A stretch of DNA of 38,691 nucleotides from Bacteroidota bacterium. GTDB taxonomy: Bacteria > Bacteroidota > Bacteroidia > Bacteroidales > FEN-979. The notes beneath the pieces are model-generated. The model saw only the letters and a list, made by a program, of their open reading frames with translations, was not told the origin of the DNA and searched no databases. Every line of letters starts with the position of its first letter. Position 1 is the stretch's first letter. Position numbers and translations under genes: made by a program. Below, in pieces: positions 19,651-31,539 of this stretch. The DNA is taken from the NCBI GenBank assembly GCA_026391845.1, contig JAPLDG010000340.1:8838-47528 (forward strand). The letters run 5' to 3'.

Positions 19651-19658
19651 CAAAATTA
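19651..19658 (-). promoter_or_regulatory. Candidate -7 box of the CBM48 gene
   Basis: On the minus strand TAATTTTG is a perfect TAnnTTTG match about 33 bases before the ATG. No TTTG lies 19-21 bases further upstream. Confidence 0.4.
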
Positions 19659-19807
19659 AAACATTTTTTATTTATGGATGTGAAATTTTTGTTAAATCTG
19701 TTGTCGGGCACTTAAAACTATCATAATATCAGTGTGTTATGAATAGTTATCAAAGTAATGAAAGAGAGGCTTATCATGACTGGATGGCAGTACATTTTGC
19801 AGTTTCA

Positions 19808-20366: not shown

Positions 20367-22570
20367 ATGGGTGATGTGAAGGGGATATACCGTGTTGACG
20401 GCATGTCATGCGCATCCTGCGCAGGCAGTATCCAGACTATGCTGTCGGCACAGGAAGGGATGCGCTCGGCCAGCGTAAACCTTGCATCTGAGCAGGTCAT
20501 GGTGGAATTTGATCCAACGGTGATTTCGCTTGAGCAGATCGCGAAGACGGTGGATGAACTGGGATTTACACTCATCACCCGCGATCTCTCCCTGGAAGAG
20601 GAGAACGATCTGGCCGTTGTGAGGTTAAACCGGCTTCGGTTGAACACCATCCTGTCGGCAGCATTTTCAATTCCGGTGGTCATGATCGCCATGGCGTTTC
20701 ATCATATGCCATATGGAAACCTGATCATGTTTGCCCTCACGATACCTGTTCTAGGCTGGTTTGGGAAGGAATTTTTTATCATTGCCTGGAAGCGCATGCT
20801 TCATTTTTCAGCCAACATGGACACCCTGGTGGCGCTTGGTACCGGAAGCGCCTTTGTTTTCAGTACATTCAACACTTTTTTCCCTGAATACCTGTTGGAA
20901 CGGGGTTTGGAGCCACATGTTTACTTTGAAGCGGCCACCGTTGTTGTCACATTCATCCTTCTGGGCAGGTACTTTGAAGAGAAGGCGAAAAGAAAAACGT
21001 CGGAAGCCATCAAAAAACTGATGGGACTGGGTGTGAAGACAGCACGGGTTATCCGCAATGGCGTGGAAAAAGAGATGCTCATCTCCAGGATCATTAAAGG
21101 GGACATTCTGGTCATCCGCCCGGGTGAAAAAATTCCCACCGACGGAAGGGTTCTGGAAGGGTCAAGCACAATTGATGAGAGCATGATTACCGGTGAATCG
21201 GTTCCTGTAACCAAGTGGCCCGGTGATGAGGTGATCGGCGCCACCATCAATCAAACAGGCAGTTTGAAAGTTGAGGCTGAAAAGATTGGAAATGATACGC
21301 TGCTTGCCCAGATCATCAGGCTGGTACAGGAAGCCCAGGGAAGTAAGGCGCCAATCCAGAAAATGGCAGATAGAATCGCCTCGGTATTTGTTCCGGTGGT
21401 GATGGGAATTTCCCTGCTCACCTTTGTTGCATGGACGATATGGCCGCCGGCGGGCGGCGCTTCATTTGCATTTATTGCGGCCGTTACCGTGCTGGTGATC
21501 GCCTGTCCGTGCGCCCTGGGGCTGGCAACACCAACTGCCCTGATGGTCGGACTGGGAAAGGCCGCGCAACTCGGTATCCTCGTGAAAGATGCTCAAAGCC
21601 TTGAAGTGGTTTGCAAAGCCACGGCCATCGTGTTGGATAAAACAGGAACGGTAACCATCGGAAGGCCGCAGGTAACCGATGTGATATGGGCCCGCGAGGC
21701 CGATAATCCGGCATTACAATCCGGACGGGATCTGCGGAGAGCGATTGTTGCCATTGAATCGATGTCGGAGCATCCGTTTGCACAGGCATTGGTAAATTTT
21801 TTCAGTCACAATCCGGTTGTGGAGACGGAAGAAGTTTCACATCAACCTGTTGGATCTGATGTTGTTTCCGGATTTGAAAGCGTCACCGGAAAAGGCGTTT
21901 CGGCTTTTTTTTCCGGCGATTTATATCACATCGGGAGCCGGTCGTATATCGCCGGCAGTGGTTGTGTAACGCCGGAAATGTTTGCAGAGCATGAAACACA
22001 GCAGAAACATCTGGCGCGGTCGCTGGTATATGTGGCCTGCAACAACAGGGTTGTTTCCATGGTGGCACTTGCCGACACCATTAAACCTGGTTCTGCAAAA
22101 GCGATTGCCATGCTTCAGAACCTGAGTCAGGAATCGGATTTTTCAAAGCAGAAGCCACGCCAGGCGAAAAATCAGCCTATGTGAGCCGACTGAAGGAACA
22201 AGGATTTGTCGTGGCCATGGTGGGAGATGGTATAAACGATTCGCCGGCGCTTGCCATGGCCGATATCGGTATTGCCATGGGCACCGGAACAGATATTGCC
22301 ATTGAAAGCGCCCAGATCACCCTGATCAAAGGGGATTTGGGAAAATTGGTGACGGCGCTGAAACTTTCGCATGAAACGGTGAGAACCATCCGGCAGAATC
22401 TCTTCTGGGCATTTTTTTACAACCTTATTGCCATTCCGTTAGCTGCAGGGGTTTTTTATCCATTTACCGGTTTTATGCTGAACCCGATGCTGGCCGGGGC
22501 TGCCATGGCTTTCAGTTCGGTATCGGTGGTGAGCAACAGTTTACGGCTCAGGTCAGCACGCATCGATTGA
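20367..22570 (+). pseudogene. copA: Copper-type P1B ATPase, disrupted by deletion of the TGDN hinge with frameshift
   Basis: Frame 1 (20367-22184) encodes an HMA metal-binding domain (GMSCASC, C15/C18), membrane helices, the actuator motif TGES (about 275), the CPC metal-site helix IACPCALG (about 378), the phosphorylation motif DKTGT (about 423) and the SEHP motif (about 467). It then runs out of frame in [12 protein letters not shown]. Frame 2 resumes the family sequence as [19 protein letters not shown] and continues through [15 protein letters not shown] and two C-terminal helices to 22570. Between MLQNL and SGIGFF some 20-25 residues with the TGDN hinge are absent. The damage near 22123-22145 is therefore a deletion not divisible by three, not a single-base slip. 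An intact product would export Cu+ (or Ag+). As read, the ATPase cannot work. A misassembly remains possible. Confidence 0.8.
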
Positions 22571-22633: not shown

Positions 22634-25000
22634 ATGGTTAAGTGTTTTCTGACAGTCACCTTGTTTCTCATCTTTTTTTCACAGGAAATTTCCGCGCAGC
22701 ATACTCCGCTGGATCGCTGTGTCAGGGATAGTTTGTTCCTGGTGATGCCCCATGACAACACGATTCAGCAGGCAATCATATACCTTGAACTGGCAGAACT
22801 GATTAAAGATAAACTGCCGCAAAAATCGTTCAGTTATATCGTCTCGGCCTTCAGGATTTCGATCCTTGAAAAAAACGACAGCCTGAAGGCATTGGTCCGG
22901 ATGAGTATGGGTGATCATTACACCACCAGACATAACTTAATGCATGCTTATGAGCAATATGTGGCTGCCTGGAAAACATACGAGCTGATTTCGGACACGG
23001 CAGGGCAGATAATTGGCTTGTTGAAAATCAGTTCAACCCACCGTTCACTGACAAACTACGGGAAAGCGCTTGAATGTCTCCGGCGAGGCATGGCTTTGGC
23101 CCAAAAATCAAAGGACCAGTCGTTGACCGGGAGACTTTATTGTGATTTGGGGATTACTTACCAGGCCATGGGTGACCGGGTACAAGCGGCGGATCAATAC
23201 AGTAAGGCCCTGGCCATATTTCAACTGACCGGAGAAAAGAACTACGAGGGGTGGGTACAAAACAACATTGGGACGTTATACCTGGATGAAGGCAGGTTTG
23301 ACGAGGGGCTTGCCTTTTATCTGAAGTTGCTTCCGGCATCCGAAGCGTTGAATCTGGATTTAAAAGGTTCCATTTACACACGCATCGGCCACATTTATTC
23401 AAAAAAACACGATTACCGGAATTCGCTGAAATACAACCTGAAAGCGTTGGTTTTCAGACAGCGTAACGGGGAGGTTCCGGTAATTATCAGTTCTTTGATC
23501 AATATTGCGGGGGATTATTACAACCTGAACAAACCTGATTCTGGCAAGCCATACATGGATTCAGGATTGATGCTGGCAAAGAGGTTTGACTTGAAGAACC
23601 TCCTGGAAAATGCTTACCGTCACCTCTATTCCTATTATCTTAACCAGGGCGATTACAAGATGGCCCTTGAGTATTATGCGCATTACAGTGCGGTGGTCCA
23701 TGGGATGAACATGGACAGGAACAGGAACAATATTGCAATACTGGAAGCCAATCAGAGGCTGCAGCGAATAGAACAGTCGGGGTTGAAGATTGCCAGGCAA
23801 CATGACATTCAGGCATTGAATTTAAAGTACCATGGTTATCAGTCTGTTTTTTTACAGTTCATGATGGGACTGGCTGCCCTGCTTGTACTTGTTTTTATTC
23901 TGTTACTATTATATCTGCGTCAGGTCAGAAGAAAAATGCAGCGTCTGAATGTTCAGTTATCCGAAGAGGTTGGTGAGCGCAAGGCTACAGAAGAGCAAAC
24001 CCGCGACCGGGAGAGCAAGTATAAGTTTATTACCGATCATTCCGTTGATTTTATCACCCACATCGACAGTCAGAAAAAACGGATATATGCCTCCCCTGCA
24101 TCCGTTACGGTTTATGGGTATGAACAAGATGAAATCATTCAGAAATCGCCCTATGACCTTACCCTCCCGGATCATCATGCTCTGATGGAGTCCCAGCTGA
24201 AGGAGATGATTGAATCCCGGTCCTCGAGGCAGTTTGTATATCAGGCACAAAAAAAAGACGGGAGCGTCTTTTGGGTTGAATCGATATTAAATCCGCTGTT
24301 TGATCCGATCAGCGGCGATTTTAAAGGGATGGTGGGGGTAACCCGCGATATTCAGGAACGCAAAACCAAAGAGTTGGAAATCATGGAAGGAACAAAGCAA
24401 AAAGAAAATCTTCTGAAAGAGATTCATCACAGGGTGAAAAATAATTTCGCCATTCTGGTGAGCCTGATCAACATGCAGATGGCTCAGACCAAAAATGAGG
24501 AGTTGCTGCAATCACTGACCAATCTGCAGCTCCGGATACGCACCATGTCGCTTGTTCATGAAATGCTCTACCGTTCAGGCGATTTTGAAAAGATATCGTT
24601 CCCGGGGTACATCCGGTCGCTGGCTTCTGTTGTGGCAGGAACGTACAACCGGCGCGAGATTGAATTATCCATTGAGGCAGATGAGGTGGTGATGGATATT
24701 GAAGCCTCGATCCCGCTTGGGTTAATCATCAATGAAATTTTAAGCAATGCATACAAACATGGATTTCCCGACCACCGCGCCGGGAAAATAGAGATCCGTT
24801 TTACCATGAACCCCGATAACGGAATAAGCAAACTGGTACTGCGGGATGACGGCATCGGCATGCCCAACGGGGTAAGCCTTGACCGGTATAAGAGCATGGG
24901 ACTTCAGGTGGTACAGATTTTATGTGCTCAGATTGAGGGCGAACTGGTTGTTGACAATAATCCCGGCGCATCGTTCACCCTGACATTTCAATCTGCATAA
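22634..25000 (+). CDS. TPR-PAS sensor histidine kinase (HisKA_2 family)
   Basis: 788 residues. A signal peptide (MVKCFLTVTLFLIFFSQEISAQ) is followed by a periplasmic TPR array (about 60-390; repeats such as GRLYCDLGITYQAMGDRVQA), one membrane helix (about 408-430), a short coiled coil, a PAS domain (about 455-580; YKFITDHSVDFITHID), HisKA_2 with the dyad H598-H599 in KEIHHRVKNNF, and HATPase_c (about 690-785; GLIINEILSNAYKHG, DDGIGMP). This architecture is common in Bacteroidota two-component systems. HisKA_2 kinases often signal to single-domain or AraC/LytTR regulators, but no response regulator is adjacent. It is followed by the phosphate operon, but 450 bases and a separate promoter separate them, so I would not assume it is the phosphate sensor. 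Confidence 0.88.
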   Translation: MVKCFLTVTLFLIFFSQEISAQHTPLDRCVRDSLFLVMPHDNTIQQAIIYLELAELIKDKLPQKSFSYIVSAFRISILEKNDSLKALVRMSMGDHYTTRHNLMHAYEQYVAAWKTYELISDTAGQIIGLLKISSTHRSLTNYGKALECLRRGMALAQKSKDQSLTGRLYCDLGITYQAMGDRVQAADQYSKALAIFQLTGEKNYEGWVQNNIGTLYLDEGRFDEGLAFYLKLLPASEALNLDLKGSIYTRIGHIYSKKHDYRNSLKYNLKALVFRQRNGEVPVIISSLINIAGDYYNLNKPDSGKPYMDSGLMLAKRFDLKNLLENAYRHLYSYYLNQGDYKMALEYYAHYSAVVHGMNMDRNRNNIAILEANQRLQRIEQSGLKIARQHDIQALNLKYHGYQSVFLQFMMGLAALLVLVFILLLLYLRQVRRKMQRLNVQLSEEVGERKATEEQTRDRESKYKFITDHSVDFITHIDSQKKRIYASPASVTVYGYEQDEIIQKSPYDLTLPDHHALMESQLKEMIESRSSRQFVYQAQKKDGSVFWVESILNPLFDPISGDFKGMVGVTRDIQERKTKELEIMEGTKQKENLLKEIHHRVKNNFAILVSLINMQMAQTKNEELLQSLTNLQLRIRTMSLVHEMLYRSGDFEKISFPGYIRSLASVVAGTYNRREIELSIEADEVVMDIEASIPLGLIINEILSNAYKHGFPDHRAGKIEIRFTMNPDNGISKLVLRDDGIGMPNGVSLDRYKSMGLQVVQILCAQIEGELVVDNNPGASFTLTFQSA

Positions 25001-25167: not shown

Positions 25168-25245
25168 CGTCCCTGCGTCCCTGCGTCTCTGCGTCTCTGC
25201 GTCTCTGCGCCTCTGCGCCTCCGCGTCTCCGCGTCTCTGCGGTTT
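25168..25245 (+). repeat. Nine-copy 8-bp tandem repeat (CGTCTCTG family)
   Basis: Nine consecutive 8-base units from 25168 to 25239 vary only at pyrimidines (CGTCCCTG, CGTCTCTG, CGCCTCTG, CGCCTCCG, CGTCTCCG), then CGGTTTA closes the array. Absence of any longer unit with spacers rules out CRISPR. Confidence 0.9.
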
Positions 25246-25365: not shown

Positions 25366-25404
25366 TTAACAATTATTTAACCCAAAGGTAATCATTTGTT
25401 AACA
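25366..25404 (+). promoter_or_regulatory. Candidate Pho box: 11-bp-phased TTAACA repeats
   Basis: TTAACA (25366), TTAACC (25377) and TTAACA (25399) start at intervals of 11 and 22 bases; the missing third register holds GTAATC (25388). Direct repeats every 11 bp are the hallmark of PhoB/PhoP binding sites. The word resembles the B. subtilis PhoP repeat TT(A/T)ACA. The last repeat ends 20 bases before the -7 box, in the activator position. The downstream genes are phosphate-uptake genes. Confidence 0.55.
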
Positions 25405-25424
25405 TGGCCTGTGAAGGGCTGAAA

Positions 25425-25432
25425 TACCTTTG
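25425..25432 (+). promoter_or_regulatory. -7 box of the phosphate porin/pst operon
   Basis: TACCTTTG is a perfect TAnnTTTG match. The ATG lies 21 bases after it, at 25453. The -33 position is occupied by the end of the Pho-box repeats, as expected for an activator-dependent promoter. Confidence 0.55.
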
Positions 25433-25452: not shown

Positions 25453-26997
25453 ATGACCAGATTTACAAAGCTTCTGCTGACAATTGGATTTGCATTGCCA
25501 ATGTTGGTATTATCTTCCCGGATTAAAGCACAGACCGAAATGGAAGTCCTCAAAACCGAACAGGACACATTGAAAGAAAATGTAGTCACCCTGCGCGATA
25601 GAATCGGCGCCGTTGAAGAGCGGATTGCAACGGCCGAGGGCGATCTTGCCAAGCTGACCAAGATAAAACTGTCGGGGTACATCCAGGCCCAGTTCGTGCA
25701 TTATGAAGCCTCTTCCGCTTTTCCGTCGGATGTGTTCATGCTTCGCAGGGCCAGGATAAAATTTCAATATGAGCCGGTGAATGGCGTTGTATTTGTGCTG
25801 CAACCCGACTTCGTACCCGGCAACATTACCCTGAAGGATGCCTATGTGCAGCTGAATGACCGTTGGTTGAAGACTTTCTCGTTATGGGCCGGAAAATTCA
25901 ACAGACCCAACTACGAAGTGGAGTATTCCTCGAGCAGCCGGGAAGTTCCGGAGCGCTCCCGGGTTATCCGTGCCATTTACCCCGATGAGCGCGCCACCGG
26001 GGCCAAATTGGAAGTTGCTCCCCCTAATCTGCCAATAAAAGTGCAACTGGCATTGTTTAACGGGAATGACGGCCTAACCATTGCCGATGCCTCCGGAAAT
26101 AACATCAACCCCCTGAACAACGATTTTGACAACCACAAGGACTTCATGGGACGTGTAACCTACACCTTCAAACTCGGCCAGATTGGCGCTCTGGGAATTG
26201 GCGCACATGGTTATTATGGCGCTATTAAAGCCAATACCACCGATGTGCTGAATTCAGATTATACCTATAACAAGTCGCTCGACAACATCGGCAAACTTAT
26301 CAGGAAGAACTGGGTGGGTTTTGAAGCACAACTTTATTTTGATTTCCTGGGCGGTCTTGCCATCAAGGGAGAATATATCTTTGGAGTGAACGGAACCCCT
26401 GGGTACAAAAGTAAAACAACTGTTGTCGGATCTCAGGTGGTAAACGGAATGAAGAATGACACCCTCTTCATGACAACCACCACCTCTGTCACAACCAACA
26501 ACCGCCCGGCCATCGAACGGAACTTCAGCGGTTATTATGTTTACCTGATCAAGAATATCGGCAAACATCATCAGGTTGCCGCGCGCTATGATTACTATGA
26601 TCCCAATACCAGGCTCCCCTCCGATCTCATCGGCGTGAACGCATACCCGGGCGATGTTGCAACAAAAACCACCGACAGTTACACCTATTCCGGAACAAAT
26701 CCGGTGGTTGCAACCAATGCCCAGACAAAAACCACGGTGTACAATTCTCTGAAAAGCGGCGCCGCCGATATCAAATACCAAACCATTACACTTGGATATA
26801 CCTATTTCTTTGACGATAATATTAAAATAATGCTTGGCTATGAGATCCCGATGAATAAAAAGGTTGGCGTAAATGAAAAAACCGGTGTGGGCAATTTTAC
26901 CACAACCTATGCTGTTAATGGTGTTCCCGGCGTATATGATTACAGCAATTCAATCAAACAAAATACCCTGACGCTTCGGTTACAGGTGAAATTCTAA
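25453..26997 (+). CDS. Phosphate-selective porin O/P family protein
   Basis: 514 residues. A signal peptide (about 1-26) precedes a short coiled coil (EVLKTEQDTLKENVVTLRDR ... AEGDLAK) of the type that trimerises porins, and then an OprP/OprO-like barrel (about 72-514: KLSGYIQAQFVHYE, FMLRRARIKFQY, LWAGKFNRPNYEVEYSS) ending in the aromatic-rich TLRLQVKF. OprP-type pores pass phosphate or polyphosphate across the outer membrane. Placement as first gene ahead of pstS behind a Pho-box-like repeat strongly supports phosphate uptake. The gap to pstS is 53 bases and AT-rich. Confidence 0.9.
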   Translation: MTRFTKLLLTIGFALPMLVLSSRIKAQTEMEVLKTEQDTLKENVVTLRDRIGAVEERIATAEGDLAKLTKIKLSGYIQAQFVHYEASSAFPSDVFMLRRARIKFQYEPVNGVVFVLQPDFVPGNITLKDAYVQLNDRWLKTFSLWAGKFNRPNYEVEYSSSSREVPERSRVIRAIYPDERATGAKLEVAPPNLPIKVQLALFNGNDGLTIADASGNNINPLNNDFDNHKDFMGRVTYTFKLGQIGALGIGAHGYYGAIKANTTDVLNSDYTYNKSLDNIGKLIRKNWVGFEAQLYFDFLGGLAIKGEYIFGVNGTPGYKSKTTVVGSQVVNGMKNDTLFMTTTTSVTTNNRPAIERNFSGYYVYLIKNIGKHHQVAARYDYYDPNTRLPSDLIGVNAYPGDVATKTTDSYTYSGTNPVVATNAQTKTTVYNSLKSGAADIKYQTITLGYTYFFDDNIKIMLGYEIPMNKKVGVNEKTGVGNFTTTYAVNGVPGVYDYSNSIKQNTLTLRLQVKF

Positions 26998-27050: not shown

Positions 27051-27890
27051 ATGAAAACAATTCAGAAAAAGTTGGGAATAACAGCGATGGTAATCATCGT
27101 AGTGCTGGGCTTCGCATTTATGCCTGCGCCTAAAAAAATAACGGTAAAGGGTTCTGACACAATGGTCATCCTGGCACAGAAATGGGCTGAAGTTTACATG
27201 AAGTCTCACCCCAACACGATTATACAGGTAACCGGGGGTGGTTCGGGAACAGGAATTTCTGCTCTGATCAACGGTGCGACCGATATCTGCAACGCGAGCC
27301 GCCCGATGAAACAATCAGAAATGGATAAGCTGAAAGACCGCTATGGTTCACTCGGTATTGAAATTCCCTGTGCCAAAGACGGCGTTACCATTTTTTTAAA
27401 TGAATCAAATCCGGTAAAGGAGTTGACCATCAAACAACTGGGTAATATTTTCTCAGGTAAGACAAGGAACTGGAAAGAGGTAGGCGGGCCTGATCAGGAT
27501 ATCAAATTATATGGCCGTGAAAATAGTTCCGGAACCTATGTGTTTTTCAAGGATCATGTCGTGAAAACCGATTATGCAGCCAATTGCCAGACTCTGCCCG
27601 GTACCGCTGCAGTGGTGAATGCTGTGTCGAAGGATAAATTCGGCATCGGATATGGCGGCGCTGCTTATGCTGCCGGAGTAAAACATTGTGCCGTGAAAAA
27701 GGATGACAAGAGCCCCGCCTTTGTTGCCAACCCCGCAACCATCAAATCGGGTCAGTACCCAATCACCCGTTACCTGTATATGTATCTGACCAACAGGCCG
27801 ACAGGGGAGATAAAGGCATACATCGACTGGATTCTCAGTGCAGAGGGACAAAAACTTGTGACAGAGATAGGATATTTTCCGGCAAAATAG
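27051..27890 (+). CDS. pstS: Phosphate ABC transporter substrate-binding protein PstS
   Basis: 279 residues, near the usual length. An N-terminal signal/anchor (ITAMVIIVVLGFAFMPAP) lacks a lipobox Cys. The phosphate-pocket motifs are visible: GSDTM near 36, QVTGGGSGTGISALINGATD near 60-80, NASRPM, the GRENSSGTY loop near 155, and the GIGYGGAAYA strand. The protein captures orthophosphate in the periplasm for PstCA. It is the second gene of the operon after the porin; a 77-base AT-rich gap precedes pstC. Confidence 0.93.
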   Translation: MKTIQKKLGITAMVIIVVLGFAFMPAPKKITVKGSDTMVILAQKWAEVYMKSHPNTIIQVTGGGSGTGISALINGATDICNASRPMKQSEMDKLKDRYGSLGIEIPCAKDGVTIFLNESNPVKELTIKQLGNIFSGKTRNWKEVGGPDQDIKLYGRENSSGTYVFFKDHVVKTDYAANCQTLPGTAAVVNAVSKDKFGIGYGGAAYAAGVKHCAVKKDDKSPAFVANPATIKSGQYPITRYLYMYLTNRPTGEIKAYIDWILSAEGQKLVTEIGYFPAK

Positions 27891-27967: not shown

Positions 27968-29092
27968 ATGGAGAATCCGATCAACAAAAAAGAGTTTGTT
28001 TTTACCAGAGAGTCGTTGAAGAAGAAATTCAGATGGTCTGAATTTCTTTCAGAGAAGATCATCACCGGAGTGGCTTTTTTATCCATCACCATCATTGTTC
28101 TGATATTTTTCTTTGTGTTCAAGGAATCCATTCCGATTTTTTATGCCAAGAAAAAGGAGCCTGTAAAAGTTGAGACGATTCAGAAGCAGGAGCAATACGG
28201 TGGAGAGTCGGAGCAAAGTCAAACCAACTCTTCGGGGCAGGAACAGTATGGTGTAACAACTAACGACACCATGATGATCGAGAACCAGGCCAGGGTGGAA
28301 GATACCATCGTTCACGGTTCTGATCAGGCCACATTTAAAAGTCTGACAGGGAAACAATGGCTGCCTGTTTCCGACAATCCCAGGTATGGGTTGATCCCGC
28401 TTTTTGTCGGCACGTTGAAAATAACCCTTATCGCGATGCTGTTTGCGGCGCCCATTGCCATCCTGGCCGCCCTTTTTTCGGCAGCGTTCGCCCCCTATTG
28501 GATGCGTGAAATAATCAAACCTGCCATTGAATTACTGGCGGGATTTCCGTCGGTGGTCATCGGTTTTTTCGCCCTGATGGTGATGGCTTCATTTTTTCAG
28601 AACATATTCGGCTACGATGGCCGGCTGAATGCATTTGTGGGGGGTGTGGCCATGGCCCTCGCCGCCATTCCGATTATTTTCACCATAACCGAAGATGCGC
28701 TCACGGCTGTTCCGCGAACCTACACCGAAGCCAGCCTTGCACTCGGGGCTACCCGGTGGCAAACAGCCTTGTTTGTGACTCTTCCGGCAGCAACCCCGGG
28801 AATTTTCGCCGCGGTACTGCTGGGGATCGGACGTGTGTTCGGGGAGACCATGATCGCCCTGATGGCTACCGGGAACGCCGCCATGATTTCGGCCAATCCG
28901 TTTGAATCGGTCAGGACTCTCGCTGCCACGATCGGCGCTGAAATGGCGGAGGTCGTATTTGGCGATACCCATTATAATGTACTCTTCCTGATAGGATCTT
29001 TACTTTTCGTCTTTAATTTCAGCCTCAATGCCCTGGCCGAATTCTATGTGAAAGGGAAATTGGTGAAACGGTTTCAGGGAAAGCAGTCATGA
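27968..29092 (+). CDS. pstC: Phosphate ABC transporter permease PstC with periplasmic insertion
   Basis: 374 residues. The first membrane helix (about 32-52) is followed by an unusual polar insertion (about 61-125, rich in Gln, Ser, Glu and Asn) before SLTGKQWLPVSDNPRYGLIP, the usual start of the transporter core. The core has five further helices and the EAA-type cytoplasmic loop EASLALGATRWQTALFVTLPAATPG. It forms the channel with PstA; the two genes overlap by 4 bases (ATGA). The insertion faces the periplasm by topology. Confidence 0.93.
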   Translation: MENPINKKEFVFTRESLKKKFRWSEFLSEKIITGVAFLSITIIVLIFFFVFKESIPIFYAKKKEPVKVETIQKQEQYGGESEQSQTNSSGQEQYGVTTNDTMMIENQARVEDTIVHGSDQATFKSLTGKQWLPVSDNPRYGLIPLFVGTLKITLIAMLFAAPIAILAALFSAAFAPYWMREIIKPAIELLAGFPSVVIGFFALMVMASFFQNIFGYDGRLNAFVGGVAMALAAIPIIFTITEDALTAVPRTYTEASLALGATRWQTALFVTLPAATPGIFAAVLLGIGRVFGETMIALMATGNAAMISANPFESVRTLAATIGAEMAEVVFGDTHYNVLFLIGSLLFVFNFSLNALAEFYVKGKLVKRFQGKQS

Positions 29093-29988
29093 GCAGAAAA
29101 AAAACAATCACCGGCGGATTATTCATCGGCGCAACCGCGTTCTCCGCATTGCTGATCATCGCCATTATTATTATCCTGCTGGTGGTCATTATCATCGGAG
29201 GCAAGAGTACCTTTTCCTGGGAATTCCTCACAGCCTTTCCGGAAGATGGCATGATGAAAGGGGGAATTTTTCCGGCAATTTACGGTACGGTACTGCTGGT
29301 GCTGATCATGTCTGTCGCGGCTGTTCCGTTCGGAACCATCACGGCGATCTACCTCACGGAATATGCCCATGAGAAATCGATCCTGGCTCAAACCATCCGA
29401 TTTGCCGTGAGAACCCTGGCAACCGTTCCCTCCATCATTTTCGGGTTGTTCGGACTGGGGTTTTTTATCAAGTTTATCGGTACCGGGATGGACGATGCTT
29501 TTTTAGGCGGACAACTGAAGTGGGGGCAGCCCAACATTCTCTGGGCCAGTCTCACCATGGCCCTGCTGACACTTCCGGTGGTGATCGTTTCGGTTGAAGA
29601 GGCCATCCGCACCGTGCCACGCGAGTTGCGCGAAGCAAGTCTCGCCCTGGGCGCCACGAAATGGGAAACCATCAAACGCATTGTGATTCCCGGTTCGCGG
29701 TCGGGAATTATGACGGGCACTATTTTAGCAGTGAGCCGCGGCGCGGGCGAAGTTGCCCCGATCCTCTTTACCGGCGCAGCTTATTACCTGGCCACACTTC
29801 CCACCTCGCTGAGCGATCAGTTCATGAACCTGGGATATCACATTTACATCATGGCTACCCAATCGGCCAACGTGGATCAAACGCTGCCTATCCAGTTTGC
29901 CACCACCATGGTTTTGTTATTGCTTACCTTTACCCTGAATTTAGCCGCTGTTATCATCCGCTCAAGATTGCGGCGAAAAGCGAAATGA
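29089..29988 (+). CDS. pstA: Phosphate ABC transporter permease PstA
   Basis: 299 residues with six predicted helices. The N-terminal segment FSWEFLTAFPEDGMMKGGIFPAIYGTV is typical of PstA. The EAA loop REASLALGATKWETIKRIVIPGSRSG lies near 185-210. The pair of EAA loops in PstC and PstA engages PstB. The start codon overlaps the pstC stop by 4 bases, indicating translational coupling; 20 bases separate it from pstB. No insertion like that in PstC is present. Confidence 0.94.
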   Translation: MSRKKTITGGLFIGATAFSALLIIAIIIILLVVIIIGGKSTFSWEFLTAFPEDGMMKGGIFPAIYGTVLLVLIMSVAAVPFGTITAIYLTEYAHEKSILAQTIRFAVRTLATVPSIIFGLFGLGFFIKFIGTGMDDAFLGGQLKWGQPNILWASLTMALLTLPVVIVSVEEAIRTVPRELREASLALGATKWETIKRIVIPGSRSGIMTGTILAVSRGAGEVAPILFTGAAYYLATLPTSLSDQFMNLGYHIYIMATQSANVDQTLPIQFATTMVLLLLTFTLNLAAVIIRSRLRRKAK

Positions 29989-30008: not shown

Positions 30009-30767
30009 ATGAAAGAAATTAAAATTAAAACCAGGGATCTGAGTTTGTTTTACGGCCCGAAAATGGCGCTGAATTCGATCTCCCTGGATATTCCCGAGAA
30101 GGAAGTTACAGCCTTTATCGGACCGTCGGGATGTGGAAAGTCCACCTTTCTCCGAACACTGAACCGCATGAACGACCTGATCCCCAATGTAAGGATCACC
30201 GGTGAAGTATTGATCGATTCGCTGAATATCTATGACAGGCAGATCGACGTGGTCAACCTCCGCAAGAAGGTGGGGATGGTTTTTCAGAAGTCAAACCCTT
30301 TTGCCAAGTCGATTTTCGAAAATGTGGCCTATGGCCCACGGATCAATGGGATCAATCATAAAGCAAAACTGGAAGAGATCGTTGAAACATCCCTGAAAAA
30401 AGCATTCATATGGGAAGAGGTGAAAGACCGGCTTCATGACTCAGCCATGGGATTATCCGGCGGCCAGCAGCAGCGCATGTGCATTGCACGAACACTGGCT
30501 GTAGAGCCTGAGGTTATTTTAATGGATGAGCCGGCCAGCGCGCTCGACCCGATTTCCACGGCGAAGATCGAGGAGCTGATCTTTGAATTGAAAAAGAACT
30601 ACACCATCGTCATCGTAACGCACAACATGCAGCAGGCTGCCCGCGTGAGTGACCTGACCGCCTTTTTCTACCTGGGAGAACTGATTGAATTCGGGAAAAC
30701 AAAGAAAATTTTTACCACACCGGATAAGAAACATACGGAGGAGTATATTACGGGGAGGTTTGGATAG
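30009..30767 (+). CDS. pstB: Phosphate ABC transporter ATPase PstB
   Basis: 252 residues, standard length. Walker [10 protein letters not shown] (38-46), Q-loop in [11 protein letters not shown], signature LSGGQQQR, Walker [14 protein letters not shown] and the H-loop [13 protein letters not shown] are all intact. It hydrolyses ATP at the inner face to drive phosphate import through PstCA. It starts 20 bases after pstA. A 7-bp tandem repeat follows its stop, ahead of phoU. Confidence 0.95.
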
Positions 30768-30855: not shown

Positions 30856-31539
30856 ATGGAACGTCATTTTGAACAAGAACTGGAGAAACTGAACAAGCGG
30901 CTTTTAAAGATGGGGAACCTGGTGTATGATCAGGTGCACAACTCTCTGGAGGCTTTGCTTACCTGCAATATTGAACTGGCGCAGCAGGTTGTTGACAAAG
31001 ACAACAAGGTGGACAAACTTGATGTGAAAATCGACAAGCTTTGTCAGCGTATTTTTGCCCTGACTCAGCCGGTGGCAACAGATTTGCGTCTGATCATGTC
31101 GGCATTGAAGATGAACAACGACCTCGAACGCCTGGGCGATCTCGCGGTGAACATCTCCGGAAAAATTGAAGGCGTAAGTGAATACAGGGAAATCCTCACC
31201 GAGCTGCATGTCGATGAATTGGCCAACATGGCCGACCTGATCGTGAAAGATGTTGTGACCATCCTGAATACCCGCAACACCACCTTTGTAAAGGATATCT
31301 TTTCTTCCGCCAGCGCCATTGAAGGGAAAGTCCAGGCAATTTCAGGGCGTATCCTGGAGGAGATGATGCATAAAACCGAAGTAATTGTTGTGGCCACCAA
31401 CCTGATGATCATCCTGACCCAGATAGACCGGATCGCCGGATATTCCACCAACATTGCCGAATCTATTGTGTTCATTGTGGATGGCAAAATGATCAAGCAT
31501 AAAAACCCCTTCAGGGAGGATGGTGCGCCTTCGACATAA
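30856..31539 (+). CDS. phoU: Phosphate signalling protein PhoU
   Basis: 227 residues in two PhoU helical repeats. Repeat 1 has RHFEQELEKL at its start and a D-x-D metal patch (VVDKDNKVDKLDVKID), then TDLRLIMSALKMNNDLERLGD. Repeat 2 repeats the pattern with TNLMIILTQIDRIAGYSTNIAES. PhoU links PstSCAB activity to PhoR and represses the Pho regulon when phosphate is plentiful. The sensor kinase and response regulator are not in this window. It lies 88 bases after pstB, a gap that includes the CGTGACG repeat, so separate expression is possible. Confidence 0.93.
   Translation: MERHFEQELEKLNKRLLKMGNLVYDQVHNSLEALLTCNIELAQQVVDKDNKVDKLDVKIDKLCQRIFALTQPVATDLRLIMSALKMNNDLERLGDLAVNISGKIEGVSEYREILTELHVDELANMADLIVKDVVTILNTRNTTFVKDIFSSASAIEGKVQAISGRILEEMMHKTEVIVVATNLMIILTQIDRIAGYSTNIAESIVFIVDGKMIKHKNPFREDGAPST

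Follow-up and report, generated by a model that had tools for sequence, protein, structure and literature searches.

A probable Pho box of four 11-bp registers ahead of a porin-pstSCAB-phoU operon in a Bacteroidota genome

The 38,691-nucleotide stretch of Bacteroidota DNA analysed here (the window) carries a porin-pstSCAB-phoU operon, and the sequence at 25366-25404 just ahead of it is very probably a Pho box, an operator at which a PhoB-family regulator would activate the operon under phosphate starvation. The site is a regular array of hexamers with a period of 11 bp and a fixed phase to the -7 box; it is conserved, and it prefers genes of phosphate type. A reading of the window from its sequence alone had proposed PhoB/PhoP control, and comparative sequence data support this proposal: the period recurs in 32 of 58 upstream regions outside the family and the phase in 26 of 29 arrays there, the box stands before phosphate genes in relatives, and the pstC promoter of Bacteroides fragilis is built alike.

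The array, its promoter and the operon

Successive registers of the array are separated by steps of 11, 11 and 11 bp (Table 1), as the sequence-only reading had stated, and its count of 20 bases from the end of the array to a perfect -7 box is equally correct; the spacer at 25405-25424 is followed by TACCTTTG, and the first ATG downstream of this box is at 25453. The gene order that it gave, with the box directly upstream of porin-pstSCAB-phoU, agrees with the reading frames and with the family profiles. The product of the first gene has no match of its own in Pfam or NCBIfam and is recognised through a 54% identical relative, located before pstS in another family (L242), that matches Porin_O_P (PF07396).

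Table 1. Coordinates of the features discussed (positions in the window unless a contig is named).
Feature	Position	Strand	Basis or remark
Pho box register 1, TTAACA	25366..25371	+	family consensus from 29 script-scored promoters
Pho box register 2, TTAACC (consensus TTAAYM)	25377..25382	+	sequence, family comparison
Pho box register 3, GTAATC (consensus KTAAYM)	25388..25393	+	sequence, family comparison
Pho box register 4, TTAACA	25399..25404	+	would occupy the -33 site
Spacer, 20 bp	25405..25424	+	length constant, sequence mostly unconserved in the family
-7 box, TACCTTTG	25425..25432	+	sequence; perfect TAnnTTTG match
Porin-like outer-membrane gene, first of the operon, 514 aa	25453..26997	+	homology to Porin_O_P relative
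pstS	27051..27890	+	TIGR02136 above cut-off
pstC, long form	27968..29092	+	TIGR02138 above cut-off
pstA	29089..29988	+	TIGR00974 above cut-off
pstB	30009..30767	+	TIGR00972 above cut-off
phoU	30856..31539	+	TIGR02135 above cut-off
Candidate second Pho box	C86:17642-17680 (L011)	-	21.0 bits at period 11
PhoB-like regulator gene	C11:52889-53575 (L177:3390-4076)		TIGR02154 best family, below cut-off

The consensus described for the primary sigma factor of the Bacteroidetes is TAnnTTTG at -7 with TTTG near -33 (PMC7366714). The promoter ahead of porin-pst has a perfect -7 box but lacks a conserved -33 element at the normal spacing; there is a TTTG at 25396-25399, 25 bp away from that box, and not all relatives retain it. 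Four hexamers of the form [GT]TAA[CT][AC] at 11-bp steps occur once in the window and in none of 300 dinucleotide shuffles of it, and shuffling the intergenic region 20,000 times never produced three or four registers. Allowing up to three mismatches, four registers are matched at three places in the 4.6-Mb genome, against none for the reversed pattern, the sole match without mismatches being the site at 25366-25404, and matches to three registers followed by N20 and TAnnTTTG (up to three mismatches) are confined to the pst site. Two registers by themselves have no specificity for a Pho box: allowing one mismatch there are 57+65 = 122 matches in the genome versus 67+81 = 148 for the reversed control, so that the two-repeat genome search proposed earlier does not discriminate and is unusable alone.

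The surrounding DNA has several features of its own. Upstream of the box, at intergenic positions 25168-25241, an 8-bp unit (CGTCTCTG) is repeated about nine times. A gene for a TPR-PAS-HisKA_2 sensor kinase (22634-25000, plus strand) lies immediately 5' of the pst promoter region, and a metal-transporting P-type ATPase (HMA, E1-E2_ATPase, Hydrolase) is encoded in two overlapping plus-strand frames, 20367-22184 and 22181-22570; the split across 20367-22570 appears to be a frameshift, either genuine or made by assembly.

Conservation in the family and the genes behind the box

The porin-like protein was searched in 61 genomes and matched in 40, and 30 of the matches, with that of its own genome included, yielded loci for comparison. 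In all 30 family promoters four registers are followed by TAnnTTTG at a distance of exactly 20 bp, as established for 29 by a script whose scoring covers the 20-bp setting alone and for L031, in which the contig begins at the first base of the array, by eye. A lack of the repeats upstream of orthologous pst operons had been named as one observation that would speak against a Pho box; every one of the 30 family orthologues keeps both array and spacing, although these are not 30 independent events because some loci are near-identical (e.g. L024 and L025). Register 1 reads TTAACA in 27 and TTCACA in two of the 29 scripted promoters, and TTAACA by eye in L031; among the scripted 29, register 3 begins with G in 26. 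The first alignment places the array of L037 one step off, and the script scores GAAACA as its last register.

Column counts over the 30 promoters, in which L031 is misplaced and L037 displaced by one step, show the fixed register positions to be identical in 26-30 promoters while the C/T and A/C positions vary. Columns of the outer flanks and of the 20-bp spacer mostly agree in 10-20 of 30, with a few reaching 24. Registers 1 and 2 are separated by a spacer that is conserved almost at the level of the registers (24-29 of 30 per column), so something besides the hexamers is also retained; the spacers behind registers 2 and 3 are more variable than the registers themselves.

Scans of 43 family genomes gave 149 matches to the four-register pattern (up to two mismatches, overlapping shifts counted) versus 5 in the reversed control, and 132 matches to the box plus promoter versus 10. 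The box-plus-promoter and three-register-plus-N20 patterns have the 20-bp spacing built in; evidence on spacing comes instead from the column alignment, the four-register scan, the reading of 20 stretches and the phase count outside the family. Two sets of 20 stretches were fetched, both picked from the match lists and neither a random sample.

Among the 20 four-register stretches, six have the array before a metallophosphoesterase gene with a -7 box at 20 bp; the homologue scanned, from L165, matches PF12850/PF00149 and is plcP-like by eye and context. In four others the array precedes a gene of TonB-dependent receptor type, three of them with 20 bp to TAnnTTTG and one with a near match. One lies next to a putative PiT gene, named by eye, with a -7 box one base off, two (L090, L091) stand before rpiB without an in-phase -7 box, and in one the gene behind the box is unclear. 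The remaining six (L082-L085, L092 and L093), before SusC-like genes named by eye, were rejected, being in reverse orientation and without an in-phase -7 box. All six have, some 156-160 bp upstream of the SusC-like genes, a conserved block that is rich in A/T and contains TTAA repeated every 11 bp.

The 20 further stretches, fetched with the box-plus-promoter pattern, contain 31 matches. They stand before phoB itself, a plcP-like gene, a PHO4 transporter, a porin-pst operon and a CHAD protein (one each), two PafA-type phosphatases, one of which was scanned (NF042991, above cut-off), two genes of TonB-receptor type, eight small proteins of CarbopepD_reg type, one of them scanned, and eight other small proteins (three of CBM48 type and two unnamed families of three and two); six are apparently unrelated. 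A Pho box is expected to lie in the promoters of genes for phosphate acquisition, pst and phoB among them, and such locations are found, pst in the window and the others in relatives.

The small CarbopepD_reg-type proteins behind Pho boxes (L159, L160, L163-L166, L168, L176 and L382) are 113-118 aa long, have N-termini that look secreted and in several genomes are encoded close to a phoB-like gene. The family is possibly an uncharacterised protein of the Pho regulon.

Three other places in the host genome were considered, two of which (on C86 and C26) are the remaining matches to the four-register pattern. The candidate on contig C86 lies 60 bp before the ATG of a MoxR-type gene (AAA_3), itself followed by a DUF58 gene. 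Three of its registers are good and one is poor; its score is 21.0 at period 11 and 12.7 at period 12, and it is 31 bp (9 modulo 11) ahead of a perfect -7 box, TAAATTTG. As a single site with one poor register it is weak evidence for a second Pho box of the genome; the MoxR-type gene behind it parallels the reported binding of the Riemerella anatipestifer PhoP to a moxR promoter (PMC9603813). A site at C26:748 before rpiB (L010, PF02502; score 18.9) was not accepted as a Pho box because it lacks a nearby -7 box, the nearest being 88 bp on; the similar matches L090 and L091 in relatives lack one in phase. In the window itself, two registers with one mismatch are followed by 20 bp and TAATTTTG at 19651-19695 on the minus strand, before a 101-aa CBM48-like protein, and a similar arrangement precedes its homologues in other family genomes; this may be a weak Pho site or an unrelated promoter.

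Period and phase outside the family

PstC-type proteins are present in 119 of 148 genomes of the phylum; a search of the order with a stricter threshold found them in 113 of 198 genomes. Sixty stretches upstream of non-family pst genes were fetched, 55 with the long form and 5 with the short form of PstC, and the regions upstream of porin, pstS and pstC were scored at periods 7-16 with a register matrix built from the family set. After prior exclusion of gaps under 120 bp and of the five short-form loci, 58 regions from 44 long-form loci were scored. Period 11 exceeds the 99% shuffle threshold in 32 of these, every other period from 7 to 16 in 0-2; an array above threshold is absent from 26 regions (16 of the 44 loci). 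By gene, arrays are found before 20 of 23 porins, 8 of 12 pstS and 4 of 23 pstC genes. Of 63 other genes in these stretches, 8 have an array, three of the 8 being OmpR-type response regulators with Trans_reg_C, and 55 have none.

Of the 32 arrays 29 have a -7 candidate, and for 26 of them the best candidate falls at 9 modulo 11 (binomial P ~2e-24 assuming independent regions, neither this value nor the shuffles taking account of relatedness); the remaining three also have some candidate in phase 9, so that all 29 do. The tandem 11-bp direct repeats and fixed helical phase to the core promoter that characterise a Pho box are both present, and the array may stand in for the -33 element. The best arrays end 9 bp from the -7 box in 17 of the 29 and 20 bp from it in seven, although picking the best array of each region may overlook a weak extra register. 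The closest pst relatives (L242-L244) are among the seven with the 20-bp setting, and in the family promoters the hexamer in the 9-bp slot scores as background (mean -8.56 versus -7.92 window-wide). A strict 9-bp pattern searched across the class gave six matches in 6 of 149 genomes, with one in the control, and the genes behind them encode two Porin_O_P proteins, a PstS-type protein, PhoU_div, a small CarbopepD_reg protein and an unnamed 446-aa protein. The Bacteroidota consensus is specific where it is found and, since this pattern is rare, is not universal in its strict form.

A scan of named genomes provided 80 PstC loci, two of them from B. fragilis; 62 have an array above threshold, 17 do not and one is truncated, and in several of the 17 the upstream sequence reads as pstS coding sequence. 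The B. fragilis pstC promoter has registers GTAACA, GTAACA, GAAACA, TTCAAA, TTCACA and TTAATA at 11 bp, with 9 bp between the sixth and TTTCTTTG; its score is 18.8 bits at period 11, and no other period exceeds 2.9. Purified PhoB (BF1576) is reported to shift a 512-bp fragment of this promoter, and deletion of phoB to reduce pstC expression to traces (PMC3547664). The two promoters are alike in preceding pst genes and in the helical phase of their 11-bp registers to the -7 box, and B. fragilis, like relatives of the host, also has a phoB-like gene that carries an array; the promoters differ in that B. fragilis has six looser registers, ending 9 bp rather than 20 bp before a -7-like box. As far as that account goes, no PhoB site is mapped within the 512-bp fragment (PMC3547664).

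The arrays before phoB-like genes score 23.4 in B. fragilis, 17.5 in B. ihuae and 19.7 in Phocaeicola vulgatus, each 9 bp before a near -7 box. We infer from similarity and the neighbouring kinase gene that the B. fragilis gene is the phoB of the published work. PhoB-like proteins of the host family and of the Bacteroidaceae are about 41% identical, with DVHIRR and DVNITR, respectively, in their recognition helices, and one may speculate that this difference explains the looser registers of B. fragilis.

Candidate regulator, competing explanations and known systems

The regulator encoded on contig C11 scores 211.3 bits against the TIGR02154 PhoB family, the top scorer among 99 families, and is called PhoB-like because this is under the equivalog cut-off of 296.2. 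The nearest solved structures of its DNA-binding domain are PhoB (1qqi, 1gxp and 3t72), the first two of which we take to be those of Escherichia coli PhoB, and its recognition helix reads DRTIDVHIRR against DRTVDVHIRR in PhoB; the domain is thus of PhoB type. At full length the best solved matches are RpaA and RegX3, not PhoB. The C11 gene is likely to encode the regulator of the pst Pho box; a kinase gene lies directly behind (L177:4076-5083), its best families being PnpS and PhoR, both under cut-off.

The host genome has one PhoB-like protein at 75% identity or more, that of C11, and each of the six family relatives searched has two or more. Sixteen phoB-like loci were examined, in three of which the gene start was not found. 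The type adjoining boxed TonB receptors has an array above threshold with a -7 candidate at 20 bp in four of six loci; in a fifth, three registers precede a perfect -7 box by 20 bp. No array precedes any of the four readable C11-type genes of relatives or the C11 gene of the host (best score -5.6), so the missing array of the host gene is typical of its type. A second pst operon of the host (C328:41000-48000, L158), with a PstC shorter than the long form of the window, likewise has no array, the best score in its 7 kb being 8.4 with a threshold of 11.3. Short-form pst loci elsewhere have an array in none of five cases, and the long- and short-form types seem to be under different regulation. 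A plcP-like query from a relative has no match in the host genome, which is 93% complete; in a search that had no positive control this is weak evidence of absence.

By far the most probable scenario is that the four tandem registers (TTAAYM), one per helical turn, serve as the operator of a response regulator of the PhoB family. Scarcity of phosphate would lead a PhoR-type kinase to phosphorylate the regulator, which would then bind in head-to-tail order on a single face of the helix with its last protomer at -33 and recruit the primary sigma factor, turning on porin-pstSCAB-phoU. Recruitment is proposed because the -7 box is perfect but has no conserved -33 element at the normal spacing, and, by analogy with E. 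coli PhoB at the -35 element, the position of register 4 fits an activator-dependent promoter in which PhoB would replace the -33 element. Phosphorylation and binding, like the contact with sigma and the sign of the regulation, are inferred.

Sites of OmpR-family regulators are often 11-bp direct repeats and the genome encodes six regulators with Trans_reg_C, and the array could be the operator of another member, ArcA-like or RprY-like, that happens to control pst; the authors of the R. anatipestifer study note that the TTTAACA motif of its PhoP resembles that of ArcA (PMC9603813). This seems unlikely, however, given that the box in relatives stands before phosphate-type and phoB-like genes, that the counterpart promoter of B. 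fragilis is reported to bind PhoB and to lose pstC expression without it (PMC3547664), and that the R. anatipestifer PhoP is itself described as raised in phosphate starvation (PMC9603813).

Two explanations do without a regulated operator. The four-register pattern can catch UP-like elements, because the SusC-like blocks that make up 6 of the 20 stretches match it, reversed and A/T-rich, without an in-phase -7 box; together with the conserved A/T-rich spacer between registers 1 and 2, this could suggest an UP-like element of a strong constitutive promoter. Such an element is highly improbable, for period 11 stands out among periods 7-16 with a fixed -7 phase, the registers are less variable than the spacers that follow registers 2 and 3, and 55 of 63 upstream regions of other genes have no array. 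Chance combined with common descent of a single operon's promoter would account for the kinship of the family promoters and for a two-register unit no commoner in the genome than its reversed control. We consider it exceedingly improbable, as none of the 300 window shuffles has four registers, period and phase recur at non-family pst promoters and before different genes, and the registers have been kept despite divergence in the outer flanks and in most of the 20-bp spacer.

A Pho box under PhoB-family control thus remains our reading of the site, and Pho boxes are a known kind of operator. The PhoP box of Bacillus subtilis has TTAACA-type registers and the SphR box of cyanobacteria CTTAACC-type registers, both at 11 bp; they differ from the array here in belonging to other phyla and to promoters of other sigma factors. 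Pho promoters of E. coli are of the -10/-35 sigma-70 type, with PhoB standing in for the -35 element. The E. coli Pho box shares the tandem 11-nt repeats, but its register is of CTGTCAT type, unlike TTAAYM (PMC4415409).

Partial precedents come from within the phylum and from marine bacteria. The DAP-seq motif of the R. anatipestifer PhoP, a regulator reported as raised in phosphate starvation, as binding the moxR promoter in EMSA and as acting on the Bat operon, is most conserved at TTTAACA (PMC9603813). Its register is nearly identical and comes from the same phylum; it differs from the window in that no 11-bp array or -7 phase is reported, neither 'pst' nor 'direct repeat' occurring in the main text (PMC9603813). 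A study of marine bacteria that covers the flavobacterium Dokdonia sp. MED134 describes putative Pho boxes at plcP clusters, predicted before plcP as in the host's relatives; the main account gives no sequence, spacing, promoter phase or assignment to Bacteroidota (PMC4796936). In Flavobacterium johnsoniae phosphate depletion is reported to induce PhoB, a TonB receptor beside phoBR, and PlcP, the types of gene that carry the box in the host's relatives; 'pho box' and 'motif' do not occur in the main text (PMC8115612). In the open-licence literature, as far as its texts were accessible, we found no account of a Pho box in Bacteroidota that sets out array, period and phase.

Control of pst by PhoB is already known in the phylum, and a mapped PhoB site at pst was not found in the literature accessible to us. 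The comparisons leave evenly balanced the broader proposal of a phylum-wide grammar (TTAAYM-like registers at 11-bp steps in phase 9 modulo 11 to TAnnTTTG) from which this lineage departs by placing its array one helical turn further upstream; the shift is suggested by the 20 bp of the family against the 9 bp of most others. If it is real, two geometries of PhoB-sigma contact would exist on one type of promoter. From the grammar, predictions can be made for individual bases in B. fragilis and in laboratory relatives; it also allows Pho regulons to be read from genomes, and raises the question of what distinguishes the 9-bp and 20-bp settings.
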